A stretch of 64,000 nucleotides of DNA from Eledone cirrhosa (lineage: Eukaryota > Mollusca > Cephalopoda > Octopoda > Eledonidae), in contig OZ024743.1 in the NCBI GenBank assembly GCA_964016885.1, positions 177,233,074 to 177,297,073 on the forward strand, written 5' to 3'. The notes under the pieces are model-generated. The model saw only the letters and a program-made list of their open reading frames with translations. It had not been told where the DNA came from and made no database searches. Positions 5,587 through 63,976 of this stretch are shown here, one piece after another. Position numbers and translations under genes: made by a program. The number at the start of each line of letters is the position of its first letter. The stretch's first letter is position 1.

Positions 5587-5654
5587 ATTTTATCTGACGA
5601 GAACACAATTTTTGTCCCAGGATGATGATGTTTTCGAAATGCGCATAATAAAAT
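5587..5654 (+). ncRNA. Type I hammerhead ribozyme (family A, copy 1)
   Basis: Hand-folded. Helix I pairs ATTTTAT (5587-5593) with ATAAAAT (5648-5654), 7 bp. The core is CTGACGA (5594-5600) and GAAA (5636-5639). Helix II is 5601-5607 with 5629-5635 (one mismatch). Helix III is a U-A pair plus the A15.1-U16.1 pair around a GCGC loop (5641-5644). The cleavage triplet is ATA (5645-5647), with predicted cleavage after 5647. A conserved linker of about 40 nt then runs into a (TA)n array. The same layout recurs at 32107-32175 (minus) and 63915-63976 (minus). Confidence 0.75.
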
Positions 5655-5687
5655 ATATGGAACTTCTTTAACCATCTTTTAATTTCC

Positions 5688-5742
5688 TCTTTATATATAT
5701 ATATATATATATATATATATATATATATATATATATATATAT
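5688..5742. repeat. (TA)n array
   Basis: Pure TA, starting about 43 nt after the predicted hammerhead cleavage site. Confidence 0.95.
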
Positions 5743-5784
5743 GAATAAATATATGTATATGTACATACATATACATATATATGT

Positions 5785-5930
5785 ATATATTAAAAAAAGT
5801 CGGGACCCGAAAGCTGAGATTTTGCCGTTTCAACAGCTAGTTGGGTCCCGACTCTGTATAATATAACCATACGGTAGGTCTCTAAGTATCGACTACTCTT
5901 CTAACCAGTTTCGAGCTGATTCCATCATGA
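5785..5930. mobile_element. Hairpin element family E, diverged copy
   Basis: Inverted arms (gtcgggaccc / gggtcccgac) around ctgagattttgccgtttcaa, followed by the family flank ctctgtataatataaccata and ctaagtatcgactactct. Related copies lie at 8202-8350, 40990-41190, 43207-43400 and 62180-62245, each beside a TA array. Confidence 0.6.
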
Positions 5931-6645
5931 TTTACACACACTGTGTATGCATGCGTGCGTGGAGGCGTGTGTGCGGGTGTTTGTATTCAAGCATATATAT
6001 CAACTAGTACAAAATATTATGACGCATACCACAATAAAAATGATGACACCTTTTAAATAATGCTTCTAATAAAAAGAAAACATTGTGAAATAACATTAGA
6101 TTGAGATGTTGCTTAGTTGCTTAAAATAAAGGAAATATGAGCAAATGGGAAAATAAAACAACACGACTATATTTACCTTTAAATATATTCAATTTCTTCT
6201 TTGATCTTTGTTACAATAAACGTAAAAGTGTTCCCGTCCAAACAGCGTCACTATAATGTTGTTATAGAGATATAGATTGTGACAGTGAAACAAGAATCGA
6301 ACATAGCGCAGTAGCAGAGATAATTGGAAATTGAACTCCCAAGATAATAGTAGACCTATGAATAAATAAATGAATTTATGGCTGTCATCTTGGCTCTGTG
6401 TCAAATATATATTCGATAAGGTTTTCTCTTTGTTTTGATGTGCATTTTAGAACTACTTCACAATTTTCCAGCATCTACTTCCACTGTGAGTGAATAAACT
6501 GTTCGTGTGGGCCTGCATACATGGACCTATAACTCCCGAGGGAGTCGTAAGGGCGCTGTGTTGGCATACAGCTTTGTAGAGCATTTTTTAAATTCTTCAG
6601 GTCTCAACACAGCAAATTTCCAAAAATATCAAATTGGTGGTTAGC
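5931..6645. other. Unassigned sequence
   Basis: A reverse frame at 6189-6404 has no recognisable domain. No repeat family recognised. Confidence 0.4.
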
Positions 6646-6649
6646 AACA

Positions 6650-6825
6650 TTTTAGTAGTATAGTGGTTAACATGCTTGCCCGGTATCCGAGAGATTCGGG
6701 GTTCGAATTCTCGCAAGTTACTCTATCTATTTATCTCTATTCAAGGGGTACTTTACCCGATTTTCTCAACTATTATTTATGGTGATCGACTGTTATTAAG
6801 GCAAATTGCATTGGGACGCATATAT
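6650..6825 (+). mobile_element. tRNA-Gly-like SINE (second SINE family)
   Basis: The head carries an A-box-like tagtatagtggttaa, an anticodon-like loop TTGCCCG (GCC would read Gly) and a B-box-like ggttcgaattc. The acceptor strands do not pair, so it is not a functional tRNA gene. The tail (gggtactttacccgattttc ... cattgggac) recurs without the head at 29915-30003, which supports a dispersed SINE. Confidence 0.6.
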
Positions 6826-6958
6826 TTTATTATATATACATATGTATATACATATATATGTATGTAAATATACATGTTTGTAGAAAGAGAGAGAGAGATT
6901 CTTTCTCCCCCTTTCACCTCACATTCTTATACCACCTATTCCTCTCTATGTTTCTCTC

Positions 6959-60672: not shown

Positions 60673-62180
60673 AATGCCTAGAATTATTAAATATAAGTAA
60701 TATCTTTACTATTATGGATGTTTAGATAGATACACTGCTTTTTATAAAATTTTATCTATTTCAGTTTTTCTATATATATTTTTTAATTTTTTAATTTTTT
60801 TACTTTTTTATTTATCACATTCATAAGAATTAATATAATTTTAACTCTGTAAGTATACCTATCAATTAATTTAATTTCCTTTTATGTATCTGGGTTCCTT
60901 GAAATTTAGATAGAATTACTATGTCTCACTAACACTCTCATCCCACAAATTTCTTTCTCTTCGCTTTTAACAGCACTTTTTAATAACATCAAATGTTTTG
61001 GGTCTCTTTCCCTAACTCCTTGTTTTGACCTCATTTTAAACCATATCTTTCTCTTCCCCATTGTATTCTTTTCATTCAAAGCATAAATTTACATTCCTCC
61101 ACTCCCAGCATCAAATTCTACTACTGTTATTCTATCAACTTGACCTCTAACTCTTTTCTATTGGTCAATTCAAAACCTGTTCCCTAATAGACCTTTTATA
61201 TTAATACTTTGTTTCTTTCAATAAACATACTTCATCATTTCTGAAGATGGTATATATATAGGCAAAGGTATATATATCTCCACTGATAATTTGTAATATA
61301 TTTTTTTACATAGATCTTTAACATAGATCTTTAACATGATATGCATACCAACACACACATAAATATCCCAGAAACGATCGTAAAATGATGAATTTTTCAA
61401 TATAAGGAACCTTTTCTTTGTTTTTGTTTCATTGTTTTTATTAATTTATCTTGACTCTGTTTTCCTAGGATTTTTACAATTAATTTTTGAATGCATTTTC
61501 TCTTTTAATGATATCTTCTATATTTGAATTACATTGAGTTCTTCATACGGATTGGACACTACCGTTTATTTTGGTAGATTGTTCTACATATATATATATA
61601 TATATATATACACTTAAAGAGGAAATCTATCAGTTAATTTTGTAAATGCTTTTAGTAGATTTAATTATATTTCAATTGATATGTTATTGCCGTTCGGTAT
61701 ATATTCTATAATAGTGTTGTTTGCAGAAGTACCCTGCCTCCTTGTCTTCATGACAATGTAATCTCATTATGTTTGGTGGGCATTTTTAATGTATTATGTT
61801 TTCCAATCGAAAGCTGCTAATTAATTTAACCTTCAGTTGAAGATATAATTATATCGTATTACTGCATAATCTAGATTAATGATATATATTATCTTCATTT
61901 TGGCATTTGGAGCATTTTCGATCCTTCATCTAATGCGTACAATTATATTTGTTCCTAATCCATTCATTGTCTGTGATGTGTTCCGGCTAGTTCATTAATT
62001 TGTAACCTTTCTCTAATTTCTCTTTCTTCTAATTCGCTTACCTATGGGGTTTGAGGGCGAGGTAAGTCGTTTTGAGTTTACAACAAATTTTAACCAATCC
62101 TCTTGACAACTACATTCTTCCCATATAAGGAAGTACCCCCTTGACAAGTTCGGCTATTTATTCACCAGGCTAAAAATTCT
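60673..62180. other. Long unassigned AT-rich stretch
   Basis: No gene, RNA or repeat family recognised. Short TA run at 61588-61610. Confidence 0.4.
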
Positions 62181-62245
62181 AATTTAGTCCACAAATAGCC
62201 GTCGAAACGGCTTGATCTCTGCCGTCGGGGTCATACTTTTTCCTA
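62180..62245. mobile_element. Hairpin element family E, half copy
   Basis: agccgtcgaaacggcttgat then ctctgccgtcggggtcatac corresponds to the right half of 43207-43321. Confidence 0.6.
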
Positions 62246-62257
62246 TATATATGTATA

Positions 62258-62354
62258 TATATACACACACACACACACACACACACACACACACACATAT
62301 ATATATATATATATATATATATATATATATATATATATATATATATATATATAT
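62258..62354. repeat. (CA)n-(TA)n array
   Basis: About 17 CA units then about 29 TA units. Confidence 0.95.
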
Positions 62355-63128
62355 GATAAAAACAAATAACGAAACGAAATTAAATTTCGTTTTGTTTGTA
62401 ACTCACTTTTGTATGACTGACGCTTAAACAATTAAGTTAAAGATGTACATCCATATATGTATACTGAAATACTAGTATGTATATGAATACACACACGTAT
62501 ACATATGTAGATGTACCAAGTTTTTTCACTGGTCACTTTACTGTGAGTGGCCAGCTATTCTGTATGTAAACACACAGACAAACCGGTTTTTAGAGTCATA
62601 CTGGTTTTTGAGGAAACACCTTTCCTCTATTCTCCAGAAAGCCAGACAAGGAATATTGAACTAGTTTCGTTGTTGTTACAACTCATCAGCAATATTTACC
62701 TATCTTCCGGCCTCTCTAGAGAATCGTAAAAGCACATATCGTTATATGCTTTTTCTATGAAAATTAGTAGTGGGCAGACTAATTTGCACAGAGTGTGAGT
62801 AAGTACCGGTCCAACGGAGACGATAAAAACAAATAACGAAACGAAATTAAATTTCGTTTTGTTTGTAACTCACTTTTGTATGACTGACGCTTAAACAATT
62901 AAGTTAAAGATGTACATCCATATATGTATACTGAAATACTAGTATGTATATGAATACACACACGTATACATATGTCTGTGTGTTTACATACAGAATAGCT
63001 GGCCACTCACAGTAAAGTGACCAGTGAAAAAACTTGGTACATCTACATATGTATACGTGTGTGTATTCATATACATACTAGTATTTCAGTATACATATAT
63101 GGATGTACATCTTTAACTTAATTGTTTA
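62355..63128. mobile_element. Rearranged foldback element with hammerhead
   Basis: Segment 62355-62511 is repeated directly at 62822-62972. From 62973 to 63127 the sequence is instead the reverse complement of about 62426-62579. The unique middle contains the ribozyme 62652-62696. (TA)n arrays flank both ends. Confidence 0.85.
62652..62696 (-). ncRNA. Type I hammerhead ribozyme, best-preserved of the window
   Basis: Minus strand, 45 nt. Helix I AATATTG (62696-62690) with CAATATT (62658-62652), 7 perfect pairs. Core CTGATGA (62689-62683). Helix II GTTGT/ACAAC with loop AACA (62682-62669), 5 perfect pairs and flush. GAAA (62668-62665). Helix III C-G plus A-U around TA. Triplet GTT (62661-62659), cut between 62659 and 62658. 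No core position is mutated. Confidence 0.8.
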
Positions 63129-63265
63129 TATATATATGCATATATATATATATATATATATATATATATATATATATATATATATATATATATATATATA
63201 TATATATGTATATATATATATATATGCATATATATATAAATTTATATATATATATATGCAAATAT
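63129..63265. repeat. (TA)n array
   Basis: About 45 TA units with GCATA and GTATA interruptions. Confidence 0.95.
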
Positions 63266-63905
63266 AAATTAGTGAGAATCGTATTTCGACTATTGGAAAT
63301 TAGCGAAAAACAACTTCCGAGATGTGTGGCAAGCGCTCCATAGAAGCTAGTGAACTAGAGCTACAACATAAGTTAAAACACACTGAGACGATGGTTAAAC
63401 CATTATCCACACAGCCATAGAAACGACTAAGTAATTCGGGTCAAACAAATAAAATATGATTGAAAATTATACCCGAACCCCTGCAAGGTTGGTAAAATCC
63501 AGCATTTTGTTTCTAAAACTCCTAAATCAGGTACTGTCTGCTTAGATAAATAATGTTAAGCTTTTGGTAAGATGATTGAACAAGGAATCACTTTCTCAAC
63601 AGGCTGTTAGTTCAAGTGCCAAGCCAAGGACTGACCGTTATCAAAACCCACGTGGGGCTCGACAAGGGGGGAAACCCTTAGTTTTGGCGGATGAATTAGG
63701 TATGTGTGTTATTATTGCAGAACTACAAAATATCACAACACGAATTAAGTTCTCAACAGAATGGTTTTAAAATTAACAAAAGCTATTCATCAGTCAATAG
63801 AATTAACTAAAAAAATCAAGAAAATTAACTGGTCAATAGCTAGACTCTGGAGATTAATATATATATATACAATGATATTAAATAAATGGAAACTATATTT
63901 ATAAA
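63266..63905. other. Unassigned sequence
   Basis: Frame 63576-63770 (64 codons) has no recognised domain, though its base composition is less AT-rich than its surroundings and it may be transposon-derived. Confidence 0.35.
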
Positions 63906-63914
63906 ACCATATTT

Positions 63915-63976
63915 ATTTTATTATATATATTTCGGGGTTACCAAGACAACATTGGTACGCTTTCATCAGATAAAAT
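63915..63976 (-). ncRNA. Type I hammerhead ribozyme (family A, copy 3)
   Basis: Minus strand. Helix I ATTTTAT (63976-63970) with ATAAAAT (63921-63915), 7 perfect pairs. Core CTGATGA (63969-63963) and GAAA (63933-63930). Helix II has a 6-bp apical stem TACCAA/TTGGTA with loop TGTTGTC, but its five base-proximal positions pair poorly. Helix III U-A plus A-U around ATAT (GCGC in the other family A copies). Triplet ATA, cut between 63922 and 63921. A short TA run follows about 60 nt downstream. Confidence 0.65.

Follow-up and report, generated by a model that had tools for sequence, protein, structure and literature searches.

Hammerhead ribozymes, (TA)n arrays and probable Penelope-type insertions in one window of the Eledone cirrhosa genome

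A stretch of 64,000 nucleotides from the octopod Eledone cirrhosa (assembly GCA_964016885.1, contig OZ024743.1, positions 177,233,074 to 177,297,073), here called the window, holds a near-complete Penelope-like element (PLE), remnants of a second one, a short non-coding element built on the same plan, and a scatter of predicted type I hammerhead ribozymes beside (TA)n arrays. A sequence-only reading had taken at least ten of the hammerheads for one dispersed non-autonomous system of short retroelements, whose RNA is trimmed by the ribozyme and integrated at TA-rich DNA, possibly by the PLE reverse transcriptase (RT) and GIY-YIG nuclease acting in trans. We followed up that reading, and conclude that the dispersed hammerheads are probably Penelope-type insertions, that is, solo or 5'-truncated pseudo long terminal repeats (pLTRs) together with one or more complete non-coding elements, for which PLE RT and GIY-YIG endonuclease would be responsible.

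Elements and hammerhead sites in the window

The near-complete copy of the first PLE, PLE1 (18664..23724, + strand), has an inverted pLTR at 18664-18939, a direct pLTR at 18950-19623, an open reading frame (ORF) at 19505-23245 broken by one in-frame stop, a second direct pLTR from 23031, and a (TA)n array at 23701-23724. Another PLE1 insertion, fragment A (15641..17907, +), consists of head-to-head inverted arms, truncated at native positions 22957 and 22175, with (TA)n on both sides. A minimal hammerhead was recognised by eye in five pLTR copies, at 18856(-), 19371(+) and 23452(+) in the near-complete copy and at 15924(-) and 17705(+) in the fragment, and folding of one copy recovered helices I and II. 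The outer 3' ends of PLE1 (n=4) run into (TA)n 155-222 nt beyond the cut; two of the four junctions fall at the native site AACAATAT and the other two at CGAAATAT. No other ATAT site occurs in the 140 nt of native sequence inspected, where TATA is present once, and as we read the junctions each of the two insertions would have one end at each ATAT site.

In PLE1 the GIY-YIG endonuclease lies C-terminal to the putative RT. The ORF has YSRYGDD where its relatives have YSRYVDD, has no Pfam RT match, and in its second part has a sole named relative, from Octopus bimaculoides (54% identity). Remnants of the PLE2 ORF were found in several frames at 56175..57806 (+) using tblastn and its relatives, with GIY-YIG in 2 of 12 alignment members and PF00078 on one of 49 relatives. 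A PDB sequence search with the PLE1 and PLE2 profiles returned nothing at E<=1, and Pfam gave nothing credible on the ORFs of the window and five relatives. An ORF at 40155-40583 (-), without a Pfam match, resembles the end of what we take to be a PIF1/Helitron-type helicase.

The non-coding element, which we call the mini-PLE (62296..63226, -), has no RT or GIY-YIG ORF; its longest stop-free stretch is 62 amino acids in the doubled unit, so it is not an autonomous PLE. Along the minus strand it runs from (TA)n (63225-63140) through an inverted arm (63128-62973), a direct repeat (62975-62822), a body (62821-62509) and the second direct repeat (62508-62355) to (TA)n (62354-62297), the repeats lying around a hammerhead with its core at 62689. 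The direct repeats are 154 bp long, 100% identical and 467 nt apart, and the inverted arms (62425-62580 and 62973-63128) are 156 nt long and again 100% identical. Its ends are unequal by 70 nt, 62355 versus the position matching 62425; the one-arm tail of a published PLE case is 31 bp. If repeat identity is a guide, the mini-PLE would be young. Its unit of 467 nt has a GC content of 0.35. Folded as a circle, the unit reaches -147.3, where 60 shuffles average -92.4 (sd 5.1; z -10.7). Because the repeat must have stood upstream of the body, the template would have been an RNA of 467-nt period, either tandem or circular, and the element looks mobilised in trans. At its first junction GTTTA is followed by TATATA, where the native sequence is GTTTAAGCG, which fits annealing to TA.

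Dispersed hammerheads were sought with descriptors of a type I hammerhead (helix I beside the core, CTGANGA and GAAA on either side of helix II, and a short helix III followed by U and not-G), which were adjusted with the sites of the sequence-only reading already known. They gave 11 dispersed sites, and additions by eye (63969, 43663, 58615 and 58855) brought the number to 15; 40286(-), with an unpaired C3-A8 core, was found by the third descriptor and was excluded from the 11. Seven of the ten hammerheads reported earlier were recovered by descriptors (5594+, 18171-, 32168-, 33361+, 50642+, 55087- and 62689-), and the other three, 63969-, 58615- and 43663-, were seen by eye only.

Hammerhead 5594 (5586..5655, +; cut at 5647) and hammerhead 32168 of the same family (32106..32176, -; cut at 32114) have (TA)n 45 and 46 nt further on, and the hammerhead-like 63969 (63914..63977, -) has a helix I like that of 5594, a TATATA helix III and an imperfect helix II. 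Helix II is long in 55087, which sits in a palindromic element (54932..55256, -; cut at 54991, (TA)n 55 nt further), and in 3949 (3837..3957, -; cut at 3845, (TA)n 94 nt further). Hammerhead 33361 stands at the centre of a 119-bp palindrome (33299..33417, +; cut at 33399, (TA)n 18 nt further). The core is CCGATGA in 18171 (18125..18179, -; cut at 18133, (TA)n 87 nt further), CTGATGT in the hammerhead-like 51585 (51483..51593, -; cut at 51491, (TA)n 179 nt further), and TTGAAAA, with U3-A8 replacing C3-G8, both in 4799, which lies in a palindrome (4627..4904, +; cut at 4825), and in 8211 (8203..8254, +; cut at 8246). The last is flanked by two (TA)n arrays, 8098-8202 and 8356-8385, of which the upstream one is closer. 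Hammerhead 50642 (cut at 50672) belongs to a head-to-head palindromic element (50321..50886, +), and that of the mini-PLE (62651..62697, -; predicted cut 62659/62658), with helix III CTAG, was found by Rfam as well as by descriptors. Beyond the PLE2 ORF remnants lie two head-to-head hammerhead-like units, 58615(-) and 58855(+) (58398..59058), the second of which has lost its cleavage triplet. A weak hammerhead-like site, 43663 (43615..43671, -), has (TA)n 83 nt further on.

These sites are too varied for the single non-autonomous system first proposed, and split into several families. The pairs 5594/32168 and 58615/58855 are clearly related; 62689 and 50642 are perhaps related, their match falling within a TA/TG-rich stretch. 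Helix III, earlier described as tiny, is 14 nt long at 33361. Stems that vary while pairing is kept, as the earlier reading stated, are seen in helix I, for which the search had itself required pairing, and the outer pair of helix II is G-C in 5594 and A-U in 32168. That outer pair is mismatched in 63969, 58615, 58855, 55087, 50642 and 33361. Strict type I form is lost through a core change in 18171 and 51585 and through the triplet in 58855.

We judge the predicted hammerheads to be real as sequence patterns. The first descriptor found five sites in the window, where 100 dinucleotide shuffles averaged 0.03. The second found four standard cores, two U3-A8 cores and one CCGATGA, each class yielding between 0 and 0.025 in 40 shuffles, and the third, which allowed a long helix II and required a self-complementary helix III, found six standard cores versus none in 40 shuffles, with one match each in the U3-A8, C3-A8, CCGA and CTGATGT classes (0 to 0.05 in shuffles). 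A common-form descriptor gave four standard cores versus none in 300 dinucleotide and none in 300 block shuffles, and no matches on the reversed sequence of the window. Three helices around CTGANGA, GAAA and NUH are present in the standard-core matches. Across a comparison set of 15 (14 dispersed sites, without 43663, and PLE1 19371), helix III is perfectly palindromic in nine, self-complementarity having been required by one descriptor; a palindromic helix III is described as permitting dimers (PMC3088659). Monomer folding energy was not distinctive in the 12 hammerheads folded (z -1.97 to +0.71). Rfam gave no hammerhead match in the whole window at the gathering threshold, and at E<=10, among the matches listed (150 of 236), a hammerhead at 62689 only (HH9, 37.7 bits, E 6.1e-6). 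It scored 58855 and 58615 at 13.9 and 13.5 bits and gave no hammerhead on 18100-19450, 50560-51620, 44200-44800 or 32090-32200; for 5594, 33361, 55087, 3949, 4799, 8211, 63969 and 43663 the coverage was that of the whole-window runs only. The Rfam models seem not to cover a helix III this short, which seems to make Rfam unsuitable as sole judge.

Two other groups of motifs were observed. At 29285 (-) and about 7941 (+) there are similar motifs, CTGATGA/CTGATAA-AGGACTAG...CC-GAAAC, that lack a proper helix III and may be old hammerhead-like repeats. At 44212-44750 (-) two direct repeats of about 211 bp (82%), 327 nt apart, each carry CTGATGA-GGAC...GTCC-GAAA, and TA, CA and TC repeats bound the pair. 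These are perhaps a decayed dimer like those of retrozymes. As an actual retrozyme pair, 44420/44747 was rejected by eye: the cores and helix II are good and helices I and III fail.

Association with (TA)n arrays and palindromes

Spacing was taken from the cut to the nearest array, an array being at least 12 nt long, and the counts were repeated at 16 and 24 nt. With arrays of at least 12 nt, one lies within 200 nt downstream in 9 of the 11 descriptor sites and upstream in 4 (random mean 2.1; 0 of 4000 draws reached 9), and with arrays of at least 24 nt the counts are 9 and 2 (random mean 1.35). Including 40286(-), the downstream count is 9/12. Among the descriptor sites labelled strict, 4 of 6 have a downstream array (P 0.016, 0.006 and 0.002 at 12, 16 and 24 nt). 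Since the descriptors were tuned on the sites reported earlier, the four sites outside that set (3949-, 51585-, 4799+ and 8211+) are a cleaner test: all four have a downstream array, at 94, 179, 76 and 110 nt, and two also have an upstream one within 200 nt. The array is nearer downstream than upstream in 14 of 15 dispersed sites with 12-nt arrays and in 13 of 15 with longer ones, 8211 always being an exception and 63969, which has no upstream array in the window, being counted as downstream-nearer. As a control, 4 of 42 ends of short interspersed nuclear elements (SINEs; 21 copies) lie within 200 nt of a (TA)n array; the SINE types have a cephalopod look. The proposed tie of hammerheads to TA-rich DNA is supported, and the architecture exceeds chance within this one window. 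The proposed spacing of 15-90 nt was right for the six clear sites (45, 87, 46, 18, 83 and 55 nt) and for one looser one (53 nt), and wrong for the other looser ones (210, 416 and 305 nt).

The palindrome set numbered 13. In it the self-inverse rows 58421-58735 and 62892-63128 were replaced by 58398-59058 and 62296-63226. It excludes the PLE1 arms, SINE pairs in inverted orientation, and 30985-31132/32309-32457. A TA array lies within 60 nt of an outer end in 11 of the 13 (random mean 3.0), which agrees with the suggestion that TA arrays border palindromes. Five of the 11 descriptor hammerheads fall inside palindromes, which cover 8.7% of the window (P 0.0015), and in all five of these palindromes the hammerhead faces outward.

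Several repeats without a descriptor hammerhead were observed: a 1.8-kb palindrome at 41373-43192 (93%) with (TA)n near both ends, short GC-richer palindromes at 40999-41122 and 43206-43324, alike by eye and beside (TA)n, and a near-perfect palindrome at 7108-7262 (95%) ending in (TA)n. Inverted arms at 49929-50176 enclose a tRNA-like-looking stretch in which ARAGORN calls no tRNA, and a 10-bp minisatellite, GCAACATGTA, occupies 36425-36827 in about 41 copies.

Eight head-to-head insertions were examined, six palindromes and two of PLE1, and they do not support trimming of the RNA by the ribozyme as a rule. The inverted copy passes through the cut in 6 of 8, so ribozyme cleavage is unnecessary for insertion; a lizard PLE likewise inserted in vitro without hammerhead cleavage (PMC11167929). 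The arm starts 2 nt upstream of the core in 33361, 6 nt in 58615 and 58855, 27 nt in 4799, 83 nt in the full PLE1 copy and far upstream in the PLE1 fragment; elsewhere it starts within helix II (55087) or, in one of the eight, 79 nt beyond the cut (62689). These boundaries rule out the ribozyme cut as a general 5' end. An exact stop at the cut was seen in one insertion, 50321-50886, where the right arm begins at 50673, the first base past the predicted cut, and the left arm (50321-50538) ends at the matching base and copies only sequence 3' of the cut. The unequal arms and unequal ends suggest two separate priming events per insertion rather than a single snap-back copy. The near-perfect palindromes at 33299, 43206 and 7108 would also fit self-priming, as earlier proposed for PLEs (PMC3846280).

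Origin of the insertions

Two of the earlier proposals, that these are retroelements and that they are linked to PLEs, gain support from element anatomy: PLE1 carries a minimal hammerhead and its 3' ends enter (TA)n, and the mini-PLE has the PLE plan. Traits published for PLEs agree with this: two direct pLTRs and one inverted pLTR, an optional tail on one arm and simple AT-rich targets (PMC3846280), as well as cutting and extension of both strands, with reverse transcription starting internally (PMC11167929). Many of the sites may be solo pLTRs of autonomous PLEs, and we infer that the PLE machinery acted in trans.

The process would begin with a tandem or circular RNA, to which the mini-PLE's direct repeat points, carrying a minimal and probably dimer-acting type I hammerhead. 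The endonuclease would cut TA-rich repeats, with which the insertions are associated (an AT-rich preference is reported in PMC11167929), and a DNA 3' end would anneal to UA or AUAU on the 3' side of the ribozyme, where the observed junctions lie, and prime reverse transcription. Since (TA)n reads alike on both strands, both broken ends could prime, and the two cDNAs would meet and join head to head and therefore leave the palindromes seen beside TA arrays. Ribozyme cleavage would be optional and would set the 5' end only sometimes, as in the one case above. A stronger version, in which (TA)n arrays are two-sided landing pads, and non-coding hammerhead RNAs moved in trans by a PLE protein are primed at their UA steps from both ends and written as head-to-head palindromes, is possible and we regard it as doubtful.

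A number of observations count against a PLE origin or against parts of this mechanism. Most hammerhead families have no clear similarity to PLE1. None of three hammerhead descriptors recovers the PLE1 copies, whose helix II requires a bulge, and copy 15924 has no helix III pair. None of the five PLE1 hammerheads has an array within 90 nt, the distance being 4296 nt in the internal copy and 155-222 nt in the others, and taken alone they are not enriched within 200 nt of one (2/5, P 0.25). Several sites have TA arrays on one side only, and a target-site duplication is unreadable within (TA)n, which on both flanks of the mini-PLE hides any that may be there. At the right end of the mini-PLE, TTTTTATC is followed by ATATAT where the native sequence is TTTTTATCGTCTCC, and the C breaks a simple annealing rule.

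The arrays might instead have been made by the element's own RT recopying a UA/AUAU step in the manner of telomerase, which would be compatible with PLEs and replace only the cutting of TA-rich repeats and the annealing there. The PLE1 arrays do begin exactly at native ATAT sites, and at several sites TA is on the 3' side only. The arrays at PLE1 fragment A and at the 18.5-kb block, however, continue into similar GTACATTAAT-type repeats, so the repeat was probably pre-existing at the PLE1 sites, and we consider this account unlikely. It is more improbable that the elements are animal retrozymes, small RNAs cut by the hammerhead, circularised and inserted by any non-LTR machinery, with the PLEs mere neighbours. 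The low GC (0.35) and self-paired fold (z -10.7) of the mini-PLE unit are traits described for retrozymes (PMC7229834), and a template that was tandem or circular is implied by its direct repeat; yet its ends are unequal and its inverted arm is of PLE type. Self-comparison shows the sites solo or inverted rather than as direct tandems, except for the mini-PLE and the 44-kb pair, and in the latter (44420/44747, spaced by 327 nt) helices I and III do not match. Direct tandems of about 170-400 nt with one hammerhead each were not found; the mini-PLE has one good hammerhead and a 467-nt period.

Inverted repeats beside TA would also be expected if the palindromes were miniature inverted-repeat transposable elements (MITEs) of TA-preferring DNA transposons with the hammerheads as passengers. 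Microsatellite-associated MITEs have been published (PMC8449440), and the TA palindromes at 7108, 40999, 41373 and 43206 have no descriptor match. The outward-facing hammerhead in 5/5 palindromes with a match, the arms that can be unequal, the direct repeat beside an inverted one, and the same plan in PLE1 make this very unlikely. We give least credence to the view that the hammerheads have no function and that CTGANGA...GAAA patterns are chance products of a window rich in AT and in repeats. Good Rfam support is limited to one site, the monomers fold with ordinary energies, several cores and helices are imperfect, and the mismatch classes of the descriptor also give single matches, all of which chance would allow; against it stand the near-zero shuffle controls, the Rfam E value of that one site and the pairing preserved across unrelated stems.

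Likeness to known systems and meaning

Penelope-type insertion, the reading we prefer, shares most with canonical endonuclease-containing (EN+) PLEs such as Penelope/Poseidon (PMC3846280, PMC11167929): direct and inverted pLTRs, an optional one-arm tail, palindromic head-to-head junctions, AT-rich targets, a minimal hammerhead near the pLTR-ORF border and a GIY-YIG endonuclease. Unlike in those elements, (TA)n abuts the ends here, PLE1 starts on the element's own ATAT steps, and at least one copy of the plan has no ORF. The minimal type I hammerheads of animal genomes and PLEs (PMC7761336) also have a tiny or absent helix III, a proposed dimer action and thousands of dispersed copies; the available passages of that paper mention neither TA arrays nor ribozyme-centred palindromic copies, both of which are present here. 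Animal non-LTR retrozymes (PMC7229834), for which PLEs are proposed as movers, are likewise non-coding, low in GC and self-paired, with a type I hammerhead in the unit, whereas the copies here are mostly not direct tandems, have inverted arms, and in the mini-PLE have a unit of 467 nt versus about 170-400. The cores of 4799 and 8211 are of the same type as the U3-A8 hammerheads for which natural covariation and activity are reported (PMC3088659), and differ from them by lying in TA-flanked elements.

Each component is known, and the combination, seen in one window and with (TA)n possibly priming from two sides, is new; among open-licence titles and abstract openings, none was found that joins hammerhead elements to (TA)n or to palindromic copies. 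If the landing-pad version were true, the elements would form a class bridging retrozymes and PLEs, and some of the palindromes next to TA microsatellites would be explained. It has been proposed that PLEs move both retrozymes and dispersed minimal hammerheads (PMC7229834, PMC7761336), and with a mini-PLE that carries a good hammerhead and a similar-ended PLE in the same window, that proposal becomes directly testable. The insertions also offer a concrete possible reason why palindromes gather at TA microsatellites.

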